The notes beneath the pieces were generated by a model. It was not told where the DNA came from. It did not search any database and saw only the letters and a list, made by a program, of their open reading frames with translations. Source: Thermoflexibacter ruber (GTDB taxonomy: Bacteria; Bacteroidota; Bacteroidia; Cytophagales; Thermoflexibacteraceae). From it: a stretch of 64,000 nucleotides of DNA. Numbering within the stretch: the first letter of the stretch is position 1; each line of letters starts with the position of its first letter. The stretch is from contig NZ_FONY01000030.1 of NCBI RefSeq assembly GCF_900113045.1, forward strand, positions 1-64,000, given 5' to 3'. A program made the position numbers and the translations under genes. Of the stretch, positions 1,103 through 46,640 are shown piece by piece.

Positions 1103-1147
1103 TGCCCCTCCCTTGCCCTTCCAATGGAGAGGGCTGAGTGGGGCAGG
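1103..1147. repeat. GC-rich palindromic repeat element, intergenic copy
   Basis: A GC-rich island in AT-rich intergenic DNA. The ends TGCCCC (1103-1108) and GGGGCA (1140-1145) are perfect complements, and an inner stem pairs GCCCTTCC (1115-1122) with GGAGAGGGC (1126-1134) around an AAT loop with one bulged base. Its reverse complement resembles the segment at 45885-45918 inside the helicase gene, so both look like copies of one dispersed palindromic element. Confidence 0.6.
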
Positions 1148-43229: not shown

Positions 43230-46200
43230 TTGCAAAAAAAATTCAACATATACCGCAGTTCCGCAGGTTCAGGTAAGACCTTCACTCTCACCAAAGAATA
43301 TCTCAAATTGGTGTTGGCTACGCCTGCCTCTCCTTCATTTAAGGCGGATTATTTCAAACATATCTTGGCGGTTACTTTTACTCACGATGCCGCCAATGAA
43401 ATGAAAGACCGAATCGTGAATAGCTTATACAGAATAGCTAATCTGTGTGATAACGAAGAAGATAGCTTACTTTTTGCTATCCTTGCCGAACTTCAAGAGG
43501 AATATCCTGAAAAGCACTTCACAAGAAAAACCTTGCAGGAAAGAGCAGAAAAAGTTTTTGCTAAACTTTTGCACAACTACTCTGACTTTGCGGTTAGCAC
43601 GATTGACTCTTTCAATAATCGAATTGTGCAGTCTTTTACCAGGGACATGGGCTTGCCTTATAACTATATGATTGAATTAGAACAAGATGAAGTATTGGAG
43701 CAGGCAACAAAATTGCTATTGGAAGAGGCAGGCGAAAAGGGCAATCGGGATTTGACAAATATTTTAGTAGATTTTGCTCTCAGACAAGTAGATGAGGAGA
43801 AATCTTGGAATATTGAAAAACTCTTGCAAGAGTTTGGCACAAATGTCTTTCAGGAAGCGAAAAAACCTTTGATTGCTCAGTTGGAAAAACTGACAAAAAA
43901 GGACTTCATAGAGATTAAAAATGACCTTTCTGAGTACAAAAATGCGGTAGAAAAAGAAATCAAAGACTTGGCAGCCCAAGGAATGAGGGCAATTCAGAAC
44001 ACAGGTTTTGAGGAGAAAGATTTTTTTCAGGGTTCAAAAGGGCTTTATGGTTTCTTTAAAAAATATAGCCAAGAGATAGATGGCAAGTTTTTTATAGAGT
44101 TTGCCAATAGTTATGTAAAAAAAACGATTGAAAGTGATGATGCTTGGGAAAGTGGGGATTTAAAAAAGAAAAAACTGACTATTCCAGAAACCTTGAAAAT
44201 GAGGTTGAGAGAAATTTTTAGTAAGTTAGATAGGTTAAAAGGCAAATATAAATCTAATTATTTGATAATCATTAATTTGATTCCTTATATTTACTTGCTG
44301 GCGACCATTAATGAACTGGACAAAAAGTTGAAAAAGCTGATGAGTGAAAAAAACAAAGTCCACATTAGCGATTTTAACCATAAAATTAATCAAATAGTTG
44401 AAAAAGAGCCTATTCCGTATATTTATGAACGTATTGGAGAACGCTTCAAACACATCTTGATAGACGAGTTCCAAGATACTTCTCAAATGCAGTGGCACAA
44501 TCTCATTCCTCTGATTTCCAACTCTTTGGGTTTTGATTTTCCTAATATGCTGGTAGGAGATGCCAAGCAAGCGATTTACCGATGGCGCAGTGGGAATGCG
44601 GATTTGATAGTGAGTCTGCCCTATGTTCCTACTGCTGCCCCTAACTCGCCTGTGGCAGAGAATGCAGAGATTTTTCAGTGGCATTTCAACGCAAAAAACT
44701 TGGATAGAAACTTTCGTAGCAAAGCACAAATCATAGAGTTTAACAACGAGCTTTTTGAGCATATTGCTAACCAATACGGGAGAGAGTTTCCTGCACTCAA
44801 AGATTACTATGAAGGAGTAAGGCAAAAAGTAGATGAAAAAAAGCAGGGTGGACACGTGCAAGTGAGTTTTTTAAGCAAAGACAAGGACTACGACGAGGCT
44901 ACTTTTGAGGAATGTTTGTCAATCGTCAAAGATTTGGTAGAAAACAAAGGCTATACATACAGAGATATTGCCATTTTGGTACGAACCAATACCAAAGCAA
45001 GCAAGTTAGCCGAGAAATTCTTAGAACAAAAAATTCAAGTAATTTCCTCAGAATCATTACTTTTGACTTACTCGCCCAAAGTCAATTTCATTGTGAGTTT
45101 CTTGCGGATAATGACCCAACCTCTCAATCCCTCAGCAAAGGCAGACTTGTTGTATTTTCTCTACGACCACTTCAACAATGAGTTAGGAGCAAATCTTCCT
45201 TTTGATGACAACACCCACTTAGCGATTAGCGAAGTTTGCAATAGCTTCAAATTTAAGGACTTTGCCAGCTTTATTAAAACTAATTTTAAAACGCCTATCA
45301 ATTTTAAAACCCTACAATACCTTTCCATTTACGAAATTGCAGAGGACTTGATTCGCACTTTCCAACTCAATTTTGACAGCAAGCAACAAATTTATTTGCA
45401 AAAACTGCTTGATGTCATGCTTGATTATGGGTTGCGAAACTCAAATAACCTGCCTGACTTTTTAGAGTATTGGGAAATGCAGAAAAGCAAAATTTCCATT
45501 ACCAGCCCTGAAACGGGCAACGCCATTCGTATCATGACTATCCACAAATCTAAGGGTTTGCAATTTCCTGTGGTAATTCTGCCTTATGCCGATTGGGAAA
45601 CTACGCCCAAGCATGGAGAAAAGTTGTGGCTTTCTTGGGAAAATACGATTGCTCCAAAACTGAAAACAGTCATTCTGCCTGTAAAAAAAGAACTCTTAGA
45701 AACTGAGTTTGCTGAGGAGTACCAAAAAGAAATACAAGCTACTTTCATAGATGCGATAAACTTGCTCTATGTTGCCCTCACTCGCCCAGAGGAAAAACTG
45801 TATGTGCTTGGCAAAGAGAGTAATAAAAGCAAAGATGGAAAGCCAAGTAGCGTGCAAGAGTTGTTGAATGTGTATGTGGAATCATGCCCCACCCCAGCCC
45901 TCCCCGAAGGAGAGGGAGTAGAAACACCCTTTGCAGAAGGGGAGAGGCAAAATGGGCAAGTGTATATCCTCAAAAATGATGATAGTCCCAAGTCTTCTCA
46001 AAAAGATAACAAAGTAGCTGATACCTACGAATTATCTTATTTTTTAAGTACAGAGTGTAGGGACAAAATTCGCATGAGACGGGACGATAAAAAGGTAAAA
46101 ATCCACTTACAGCACGAGGTAAAAGGAGAGTACAATATTGACATTCAAGGGCTTTATGATGCAAGGAAACAAGGTTTGCTGATTCACCATGCTTTTGAAA

Positions 46201-46640
46201 GGGTGAAATACAAAACTGACATAGGAAGGGCAGTGCAAAAGTTAGTGAATGAAGGCTACATTACAGAAGAAGAAAAAGAAGGAATAGAAGTTAAAATGCA
46301 CCAAATCATTGCTTTACCCGAAATACAAGCATTTTATGAACCCCAAGAAGGAAGGCGGATTTTTAATGAGAAGGAGTTGGTGGTGAAAGTAGAAAGTAAT
46401 AGTTTTTTGAGTGATAACACCCAAAAAAAGGAAGAGAAGGTATTGCGACCTGATAGAATAATAGTTGATAATGAACTAATTACTATTATTGATTACAAAA
46501 CGGGTATAGAAAAAATCCAAGAGCATACGCGCCAAGTCAATGAATACGCCAAAGCACTCTTAGCCATAGATACTTTCAAAGATTTTGAAATTCAGCAGTT
46601 TATTGTTTATACTGAGGAGTTGAGAATAGTAAAGGTATGA
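43230..46640 (+). CDS. UvrD-family helicase fused to PD-(D/E)XK nuclease (AddA/RecB-like)
   Basis: An 1136-residue DNA helicase-nuclease. TTG at 43230 is the only plausible start because a TAG lies in frame four codons upstream. Walker A GSGKT at 13-17 (SSAGSGKTFTL), motif II ILIDEFQDTSQ, motif III region GDAKQAIYRWR, late motifs MTIHKSKGLQFPVVILPYAD and INLLYVALTRPEEKLYVLG. The nuclease core RPDRIIVDNE..IDYKTG is at the C-terminus. Family members repair double-strand breaks with an AddB partner, which is not seen nearby. Residues about 886-908 (CPTPALPEGEGVETPFAEGE) are encoded by a palindromic repeat element (see 45885). Confidence 0.9.
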   Translation: MQKKFNIYRSSAGSGKTFTLTKEYLKLVLATPASPSFKADYFKHILAVTFTHDAANEMKDRIVNSLYRIANLCDNEEDSLLFAILAELQEEYPEKHFTRKTLQERAEKVFAKLLHNYSDFAVSTIDSFNNRIVQSFTRDMGLPYNYMIELEQDEVLEQATKLLLEEAGEKGNRDLTNILVDFALRQVDEEKSWNIEKLLQEFGTNVFQEAKKPLIAQLEKLTKKDFIEIKNDLSEYKNAVEKEIKDLAAQGMRAIQNTGFEEKDFFQGSKGLYGFFKKYSQEIDGKFFIEFANSYVKKTIESDDAWESGDLKKKKLTIPETLKMRLREIFSKLDRLKGKYKSNYLIIINLIPYIYLLATINELDKKLKKLMSEKNKVHISDFNHKINQIVEKEPIPYIYERIGERFKHILIDEFQDTSQMQWHNLIPLISNSLGFDFPNMLVGDAKQAIYRWRSGNADLIVSLPYVPTAAPNSPVAENAEIFQWHFNAKNLDRNFRSKAQIIEFNNELFEHIANQYGREFPALKDYYEGVRQKVDEKKQGGHVQVSFLSKDKDYDEATFEECLSIVKDLVENKGYTYRDIAILVRTNTKASKLAEKFLEQKIQVISSESLLLTYSPKVNFIVSFLRIMTQPLNPSAKADLLYFLYDHFNNELGANLPFDDNTHLAISEVCNSFKFKDFASFIKTNFKTPINFKTLQYLSIYEIAEDLIRTFQLNFDSKQQIYLQKLLDVMLDYGLRNSNNLPDFLEYWEMQKSKISITSPETGNAIRIMTIHKSKGLQFPVVILPYADWETTPKHGEKLWLSWENTIAPKLKTVILPVKKELLETEFAEEYQKEIQATFIDAINLLYVALTRPEEKLYVLGKESNKSKDGKPSSVQELLNVYVESCPTPALPEGEGVETPFAEGERQNGQVYILKNDDSPKSSQKDNKVADTYELSYFLSTECRDKIRMRRDDKKVKIHLQHEVKGEYNIDIQGLYDARKQGLLIHHAFERVKYKTDIGRAVQKLVNEGYITEEEKEGIEVKMHQIIALPEIQAFYEPQEGRRIFNEKELVVKVESNSFLSDNTQKKEEKVLRPDRIIVDNELITIIDYKTGIEKIQEHTRQVNEYAKALLAIDTFKDFEIQQFIVYTEELRIVKV
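45885..45950 (+). repeat. GC-rich palindromic repeat element inserted in frame in the helicase gene
   Basis: TGCCCCACCCCAGCCCTCCCC with GGAGAGGGAG, then CACCC, AGAAGGGGAGAGGC, stands out in AT-rich coding DNA and resembles the reverse complement of the intergenic copy at 1103-1147. It keeps the helicase frame open, adding about 20 residues between motif VI and the nuclease domain. The 3' limit is uncertain. Confidence 0.55.

Follow-up and report, generated by a model that had tools for sequence, protein, structure and literature searches.

A palindromic element in frame in a bacterial helicase gene and the possible relation of its family to DUF559 nuclease genes

A short palindromic element lies in frame in a helicase gene of Thermoflexibacter ruber, within the 64,000-nucleotide stretch of contig NZ_FONY01000030.1 that was analyzed here (the window). 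Genome comparisons show the segment to be absent from the congeneric orthologues of the helicase, and its relatives to be dispersed across the own and related genomes and often in frame in other genes. They also show that, in related genomes, inverted palindromes bracket DUF559 genes, with whole units in frame inside essential genes. The window copy is probably a non-autonomous remnant of a mobile element in which palindromes accompany a gene for DUF559, the putative mobiliser; the host would tolerate it as an added stretch of peptide. Bacteria commonly carry short palindromic repeats, and we know of no settled mover for them outside RAYT systems.

The element and its host helicase

The features discussed are collected in Table 1. 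The initial annotation had placed a GC-rich stretch in frame within an AT-rich helicase gene, and both its location and its frame are borne out by the sequence and the ORF listing. With boundaries taken from its end repeats, the element has 65% GC, compared with 37.8% for the helicase ORF. No other 63-nt window of this ORF away from the element is as GC-rich, and only seven 63-nt windows in the 64 kb, the element's own counted, reach its value. The description of the stretch as a nearly palindromic run holds for its hairpins and inverted ends, but not for the overall architecture, in which two hairpins lie side by side, with imperfect inverted repeats at the ends, in place of one long palindrome. 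GTAG is present at 45918, directly after the first hairpin. The second half is fuller in several same-genus copies than in the window element. For comparison with the 3' repeat, the insert in the homologous helicase of G040, a genome from another family of the order, ends in GGGGTGAGGC. As single-stranded DNA, 45880-45955 folds only moderately better than its shuffles (z -1.84; 7 of 200 shuffles as good). The element with a few extra bases is free of stop codons in five of the six reading frames.

Table 1. Positions in the window of the helicase gene, the palindromic element with its parts, and an intergenic relative.
Feature	Position	Strand	Remarks and basis
Host ORF, UvrD/AddA-like helicase	43230..46640	+	1136 aa; ORF listing; Pfam UvrD-helicase, UvrD_C
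Palindromic element, inserted	45886..45948	+	63 nt, encodes CPTPALPEGEGVETPFAEGER with one host-codon base on each side; sequence
5' terminal inverted repeat GCCCCACCCC	45886..45895	+	Sequence; similar ends in other copies
First hairpin CCCTCCCC-GAA-GGAGAGGG	45898..45916	+	Sequence; aligned among family copies
Second hairpin, decayed, CCCTT-TGCAG-AAGGG	45927..45941	+	Sequence
3' terminal inverted repeat GGGGAGAGGC	45939..45948	+	Sequence; imperfect inverse of the 5' end
Intergenic relative, single palindrome TGCCCC...GGGGCA	1103..1145	+	R1 37.6 bits; in R1 seed

The host protein, which we take to be AddA-like, has only helicase domains as Pfam matches (UvrD-helicase, E 1.7e-35; UvrD_C, E 6.7e-27), and UvrD_C stops at residue 859, ahead of the insert. 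The G040 homologue has weak NCBIfam matches to AddA/RecB. The search for helicase homologues was positive in 52 of 59 genomes, own genome counted, and 30 loci, the window locus included, were aligned. A scan of a set of genome contigs with the helicase found no relative.

The two same-genus orthologues, from G001 (76% amino acid identity) and G002 (74%), lack the insert: ten residues separate their VES-like and GQ-like anchors, versus 23 in the window protein. By eye, the palindromic peptide is absent as well from 27 further aligned homologues, some of them partial in this region. The proposed comparison with orthologues thus came out as expected, and the apparent insertion, in frame and missing from the orthologues, behaves as an RPE-like element would. 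The flanks, however, do not match exactly, contrary to the prediction. An addition of about 20 residues had been claimed; the element does encode the peptide given in Table 1, but the helicase is longer by 13 residues net, rather than by 21. Either, therefore, the element took the place of some 8-10 residues of the host, or its 3' half consists in part of host sequence that has diverged. This discrepancy is the weakest point in the window element's own case.

Related copies in the genome and genus

Seven seed copies, both window copies among them, went into a covariance model, R1. It matches the helicase element at 45885-45918 and confirms the related intergenic sequence that had been noticed at 1103, though both of these copies had seeded it. 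A search of the window with the pattern of the 1103 copy, allowing up to three mismatches, returned that copy alone, and the element is absent among the 20 repeat families listed of at least 60 in the window. Positions 1098-1201 align with a copy on contig C95 (L015 350-452) over 104 nt at 89% identity; the blastn E-value between the C95 and 1103 copies is 4.3e-16. The 3' flank of the 1103 copy is also common to a copy on contig C56 (L016 1501-1559; 59 nt, 83%). Since the three copies have this flank in common, the 1103 copy may belong to a longer intergenic repeat. The ORF at 3-272 on the minus strand, which runs off the window end, looks to us like a helix-turn-helix transposase fragment.

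A further copy was found by blastn of the own genome (C52:61225, E 5.5e-5). A degenerate pattern matched four places in this genome, the window element included, versus none for the reversed pattern; one of the four (C70) is not clearly a family member. R1 gave 35, 30, 43, 16, 46, 73 and 125 matches (E<=1) in seven genomes of the host's family. An element counted as in-gene when it was in frame with a surrounding ORF of 200 aa or more and had no fewer than 50 aa of that ORF to either side. The counts cover the better-scoring R1 matches among those listed (12 elements versus 35 matches at E<=1 in the own genome) and, for G008 and G009, a subset of the matches. Elements in frame made up 8/12 in the own genome (G000), 8/14 and 7/9 in the congeners G001 and G002, 21/23 in G005, 6/22 in G009 and 1/12 in G008, the last two having their examined copies mostly outside genes. 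The habit of sitting in genes thus varies by genome. The initial annotation had compared the element with the palindromic elements (RPEs) of Rickettsia and had expected further copies, some in other genes. Such copies exist, and the finding that 8 of the 12 examined in the own genome are in frame in long ORFs, together with the absence of the segment from the orthologues, supports the RPE-like reading.

Host proteins in the own genome include MetH, an FAD-linked oxidase, a hybrid histidine kinase with two inserts, Cas1, a UDPGT-like transferase and an ORF that we take to be RHS-like. In the congeners they include KdpA, a CzcA/AcrB-type pump, a C39 ABC exporter, type ISP restriction proteins, A2M and CysN. 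Compared with solved homologues, the KdpA insert (query 165-193) faces six residues and the MetH insert (query 214-239) none; in CysN, query 174-217 faces six residues, a span that exceeds the element. The gaps are smaller or less sharp for the CzcA-like pump and the C39 exporter, and the Cas1 match simply stops just ahead of the insert. A pair of RHS-like paralogues in the own genome, 89% identical overall in their alignment, has 42 versus 18 nt at the insert.

Matches to the pattern CCCCACCCC-N1-6-CCCTCCCC are present in 24 of 98 genomes, the own genome being one of them, compared with a single match for its reversed control. Several genomes contain inverted pairs of it about 100 bp apart, an arrangement similar to REPINs. 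The C52 and MetH copies and the pairs in G040 and G068 are of this inverted-pair type, while some family copies are single; the second half of the window copy is decayed. Compound elements in G005 (L153-L169) have AGCCCCC(T/C)AACCCCC-type hairpins around a central palindrome, with up to three elements per ORF. A second palindrome-like repeat, around GTGAGGACACC and perhaps representing another palindrome family, adjoins the element in coding sequence (L151 at about 1242, CysN of G002); stretches resembling it are present in L127 and L144, and one exact match was found in 231 loci.

DUF559 genes between inverted palindromes

The loop of MetH that carries a palindromic insert in the own genome and G001, and a variant in G009, holds in G005 an in-frame segment of 243 residues, in which palindromic peptides surround DUF559 (E 2.8e-34). 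Among the best 80 of 595 MetH loci, the loop is short (41 residues) in 43 of the 49 measured, 31 of the 80 being unmeasured, and tblastn detected no DUF559 in these 80. Longer loops that are not this palindrome are present in G006, G010, G012 and G002, indicating that the loop is permissive in general.

A search for PF04480 (DUF559) gave 72 matches in 43 of 98 genomes. As counted from the table of matches, 28 of the 55 with E<=1e-20 lie in ORFs of at least 500 aa. Pfam places embedded DUF559 domains in a UvrD/RecB-like helicase, LeuRS, MetH, IleRS and MutS, with more LeuRS, IleRS and MetH proteins and one type ISP protein as further hosts. By Pfam, these embedded domains belong to the same family as other DUF559 (PF04480) proteins, which is labelled there as of unknown function. 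Complete palindrome-DUF559-palindrome units are in frame inside LeuRS, IleRS, MetH, MutS and the G040 helicase. The last of these is homologous to the window protein but carries its insert at a different place. G055, a congener of G040, has an empty site (37 versus 517 nt), and the host DNA beside the site is 79.6% and 76.6% identical on the two sides. The insert opens with GCCTCACCCCCCAACCCCCTCTCC and closes with the inverse of GCCTCACCCCCCAACCCCCTCTCC, and DUF559 is the only Pfam domain between the inverted ends of this compact unit of 480 nt net. The LeuRS units are found at about one site in four genomes (L362 of G002, L359, L360 and L369), just before the editing-domain motif FTTR(x)DTIFGV.

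All 40 DUF559 domains compared, embedded copies included, have the same residues in four columns (D, E, D and H). We take the fold to be that of a PD-(D/E)XK-like nuclease, in which these residues presumably have catalytic roles. One FastTree tree, read without support values, places the LeuRS copy of G091 next to its MetH copy and groups the helicase copy of G040 with a stand-alone copy of G081; these cross-gene neighbours suggest that the domain has moved between genes.

Inteins and intron-borne homing endonucleases are nuclease domains embedded in conserved essential genes. The DUF559 units are like them in having an embedded nuclease and an empty site in a relative, but searches for splicing domains and intron families in them gave nothing. 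Neither intein nor Hint families were detected at E 1e-5 in 12 embedded proteins (Pfam) or in five (NCBIfam), Rfam gave no match at gathering score in seven DUF559 loci and the window helicase locus, and the reading frame runs uninterrupted through the units. An identity as intein or intron was rejected on these grounds.

The association was assessed at 39 DUF559 loci, chosen from the 72 matches with preference for long ORFs and palindrome-rich genomes. An R1 match lies within 350 bp of DUF559 on both sides at 14 loci, on one side at 11 and on neither at 14. Within DUF559 or at most 350 bp from it are 51 of the 67 R1 matches, the counted flanks amounting to 27.3 of 185.9 kb. Inverted repeats identified without the model, with thresholds derived from single-base shuffles, bracket 26 of 37 DUF559 domains (two loci were dropped for runs of N), whereas 4 of 156 places drawn at random from these loci are so bracketed (Fisher p 1.6e-19). 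In a second set with one locus per genome, consisting of the best loci from 30 of the 43 DUF559-bearing genomes, the domain is bracketed in 23 of 30; the 4/156 controls come from the 37-locus set. Phylum-wide, PF04480 is present in 221 of 392 genomes, and inverted repeats exceed the locus's own shuffles at 17 of 25 DUF559 loci (those of 29 that were long enough and free of N). The sole same-genus DUF559, in LeuRS of G002, has weak flanking palindromes (R1 20.9 and 18.9 bits), and its flanks score 19 in the inverted-repeat test, under the threshold (L335). Outside Bacteroidota, six DUF559 plasmid loci, hand-chosen among 30 listed of 40 records, gave two strong results, two marginal ones and two not above shuffles. 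Plasmids of Pseudanabaena (NZ_AP017561.1, L448) and Deinococcus psychrotolerans (NZ_CP034185.1, L450) carry DUF559 with long flanking inverted repeats. The genes concerned, WP_126390741.1 in Pseudanabaena and WP_124874550.1 in Deinococcus, are stand-alone units between palindromes.

Twenty REPINs were picked from inverted pattern pairs in G040, G068 and G081. All except L436 match DUF559 units by blastn (19/20), one of them over 55/55 nt of a unit end, and the interiors of the six REPINs inspected differ. In sharing their ends with these units, the short copies resemble MITEs in relation to a parent element. At the level of genomes, 16 have both the palindrome and DUF559, 8 the palindrome only, 27 DUF559 only and 47 neither (Fisher p 0.017, uncorrected for kinship); this co-occurrence is modest and constitutes weak evidence. 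DUF559 genes bracketed by inverted repeats are found in the relatives, whereas the own genome has no PF04480 match, so that a DUF559 mobiliser would have been lost or would act from elsewhere.

Candidate movers and relation to known repeats

We propose that a non-autonomous, REPIN-like copy inserted in frame in the helicase linker. DUF559 would move full units and short copies alike, probably through nicks or cuts made in the hairpins or close to them, after which host repair would make the copy. Insertions in coding DNA would survive where the host protein works with an extra peptide or nuclease domain, presumably because stop codons are almost absent from the C-rich palindromes and the insertion sites are in loops or linkers.

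Alternatively, DUF559 may be cargo: another activity would move the palindromes, which DUF559 units use as landing places or ends. We regard this as possible but unlikely. It would account for the 14 of 39 DUF559 loci with no nearby R1 match and for the 8 of 24 palindrome-bearing genomes in which DUF559 is missing, but Pfam finds nothing else between the inverted ends of the G040 helicase unit, and the acidic and histidine columns are kept even in embedded domains.

Movement by RAYT (a Y1 tyrosine transposase), as for the REPs and REPINs of gammaproteobacteria, would make DUF559 irrelevant. The paired inverted palindromes about 100 bp apart do resemble REPINs. In addition, Y1_Tnp genes are present in the own genome (two) and in 10 of 11 relatives tested, and some inverted repeat above threshold flanks 15 of 32 Y1 loci, with rough gene bounds. 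However, none of the 32 Y1_Tnp loci has an R1 palindrome (E<=0.5) within its fetched flank of about 1.5 kb, so that a RAYT/Y1 transposase was rejected as neighbour of the palindromes, and palindrome-rich G008 (73 R1 matches) has no Y1_Tnp match. This explanation therefore appears improbable. A conserved GTAG/CGTC tag was not found either: among 41 R1 matches in the genus, GTAG is present at the 5' end in three and at the 3' end in three, and CGTC in none.

That the added peptide has been selected because it serves the host, for instance by making the linker more flexible, is very doubtful. The presence of the MetH insert in G000 as well as in G001 could reflect retention since a common ancestor, or repeated use of the loop, but several reading frames are used and, by eye, the resulting peptides differ among unrelated proteins. 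Ordinary linker expansion, in which GC-rich sequence slipped or drifted and no mobile element took part, would suit the variable linker length among helicase homologues and the decayed second hairpin, but is hardly credible given that comparable sequence with comparable ends turns up repeatedly in unrelated genes and between genes, that the RHS-like paralogues differ by such an insert, and that the chance copies it needs are at odds with control patterns giving zero or one match.

DUF559-driven movement, the reading we prefer, can be set beside systems already described. The resemblance to Rickettsia RPEs is one of behaviour. Those elements, treated in PMC3733652, are likewise short palindromic DNA in frame in unrelated genes that adds a peptide; they belong to another phylum, and the inverted palindromes of the window family additionally bracket a nuclease gene. 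PMC3733652 also describes REPs inside ORFs in several species, with a UvrD/REP helicase and recBCD among the hosts, and equates some of them with Rickettsia RPEs; it states that REP dimers and groups in ORFs code for 20-30 residues, that CGTC repeats occur in Bacteroidetes and that most REPs are intergenic. REPs and dimers inside ORFs, and repair-protein hosts, are common to those GTAG/CGTC-tagged REPs and the window family, but the latter has no conserved tag, no RAYT link was found for it, and most of its examined copies are in genes in four genomes. Since in-gene REPs have been described before, the window insert alone is a further case of a known phenomenon. REPINs, the subject of PMC3116915, also consist of two inverted palindromes forming one dispersed unit, linked there to a Y1 transposase and in the window family to DUF559.

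Flavobacterium and other Bacteroidota are rich in REPs according to PMC12306157, whose main text makes no mention of DUF559. By title, abstract and term counts, none of the papers listed in searches of the openly licensed literature has a link between DUF559 and palindromes as its topic. PMC12308824 describes recombination hotspots in Legionella that are repeated segments with a transposase and DUF559, in keeping with a mobile role of DUF559.

It seems reasonably likely that the units represent a widespread class of mobile DNA, in which a DUF559 endonuclease gene between inverted GC-rich palindromes forms non-splicing, in-frame inserts in essential genes (LeuRS, IleRS, MetH, MutS and a RecB/AddA-like helicase), and of which internally deleted forms would make up many of the REP-like palindromes of Bacteroidota, perhaps also of cyanobacteria and Deinococcus. 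The recurrent link with a family as large as DUF559 makes the question of what moves these palindromes directly testable. If the proposal is correct, DUF559 would be the missing mobiliser for palindromes that RAYT does not explain, and this selfish DNA would persist as an additional domain of essential proteins, with no splicing to remove it. Such inserts would then be a source of new protein segments as well as of annotation errors.
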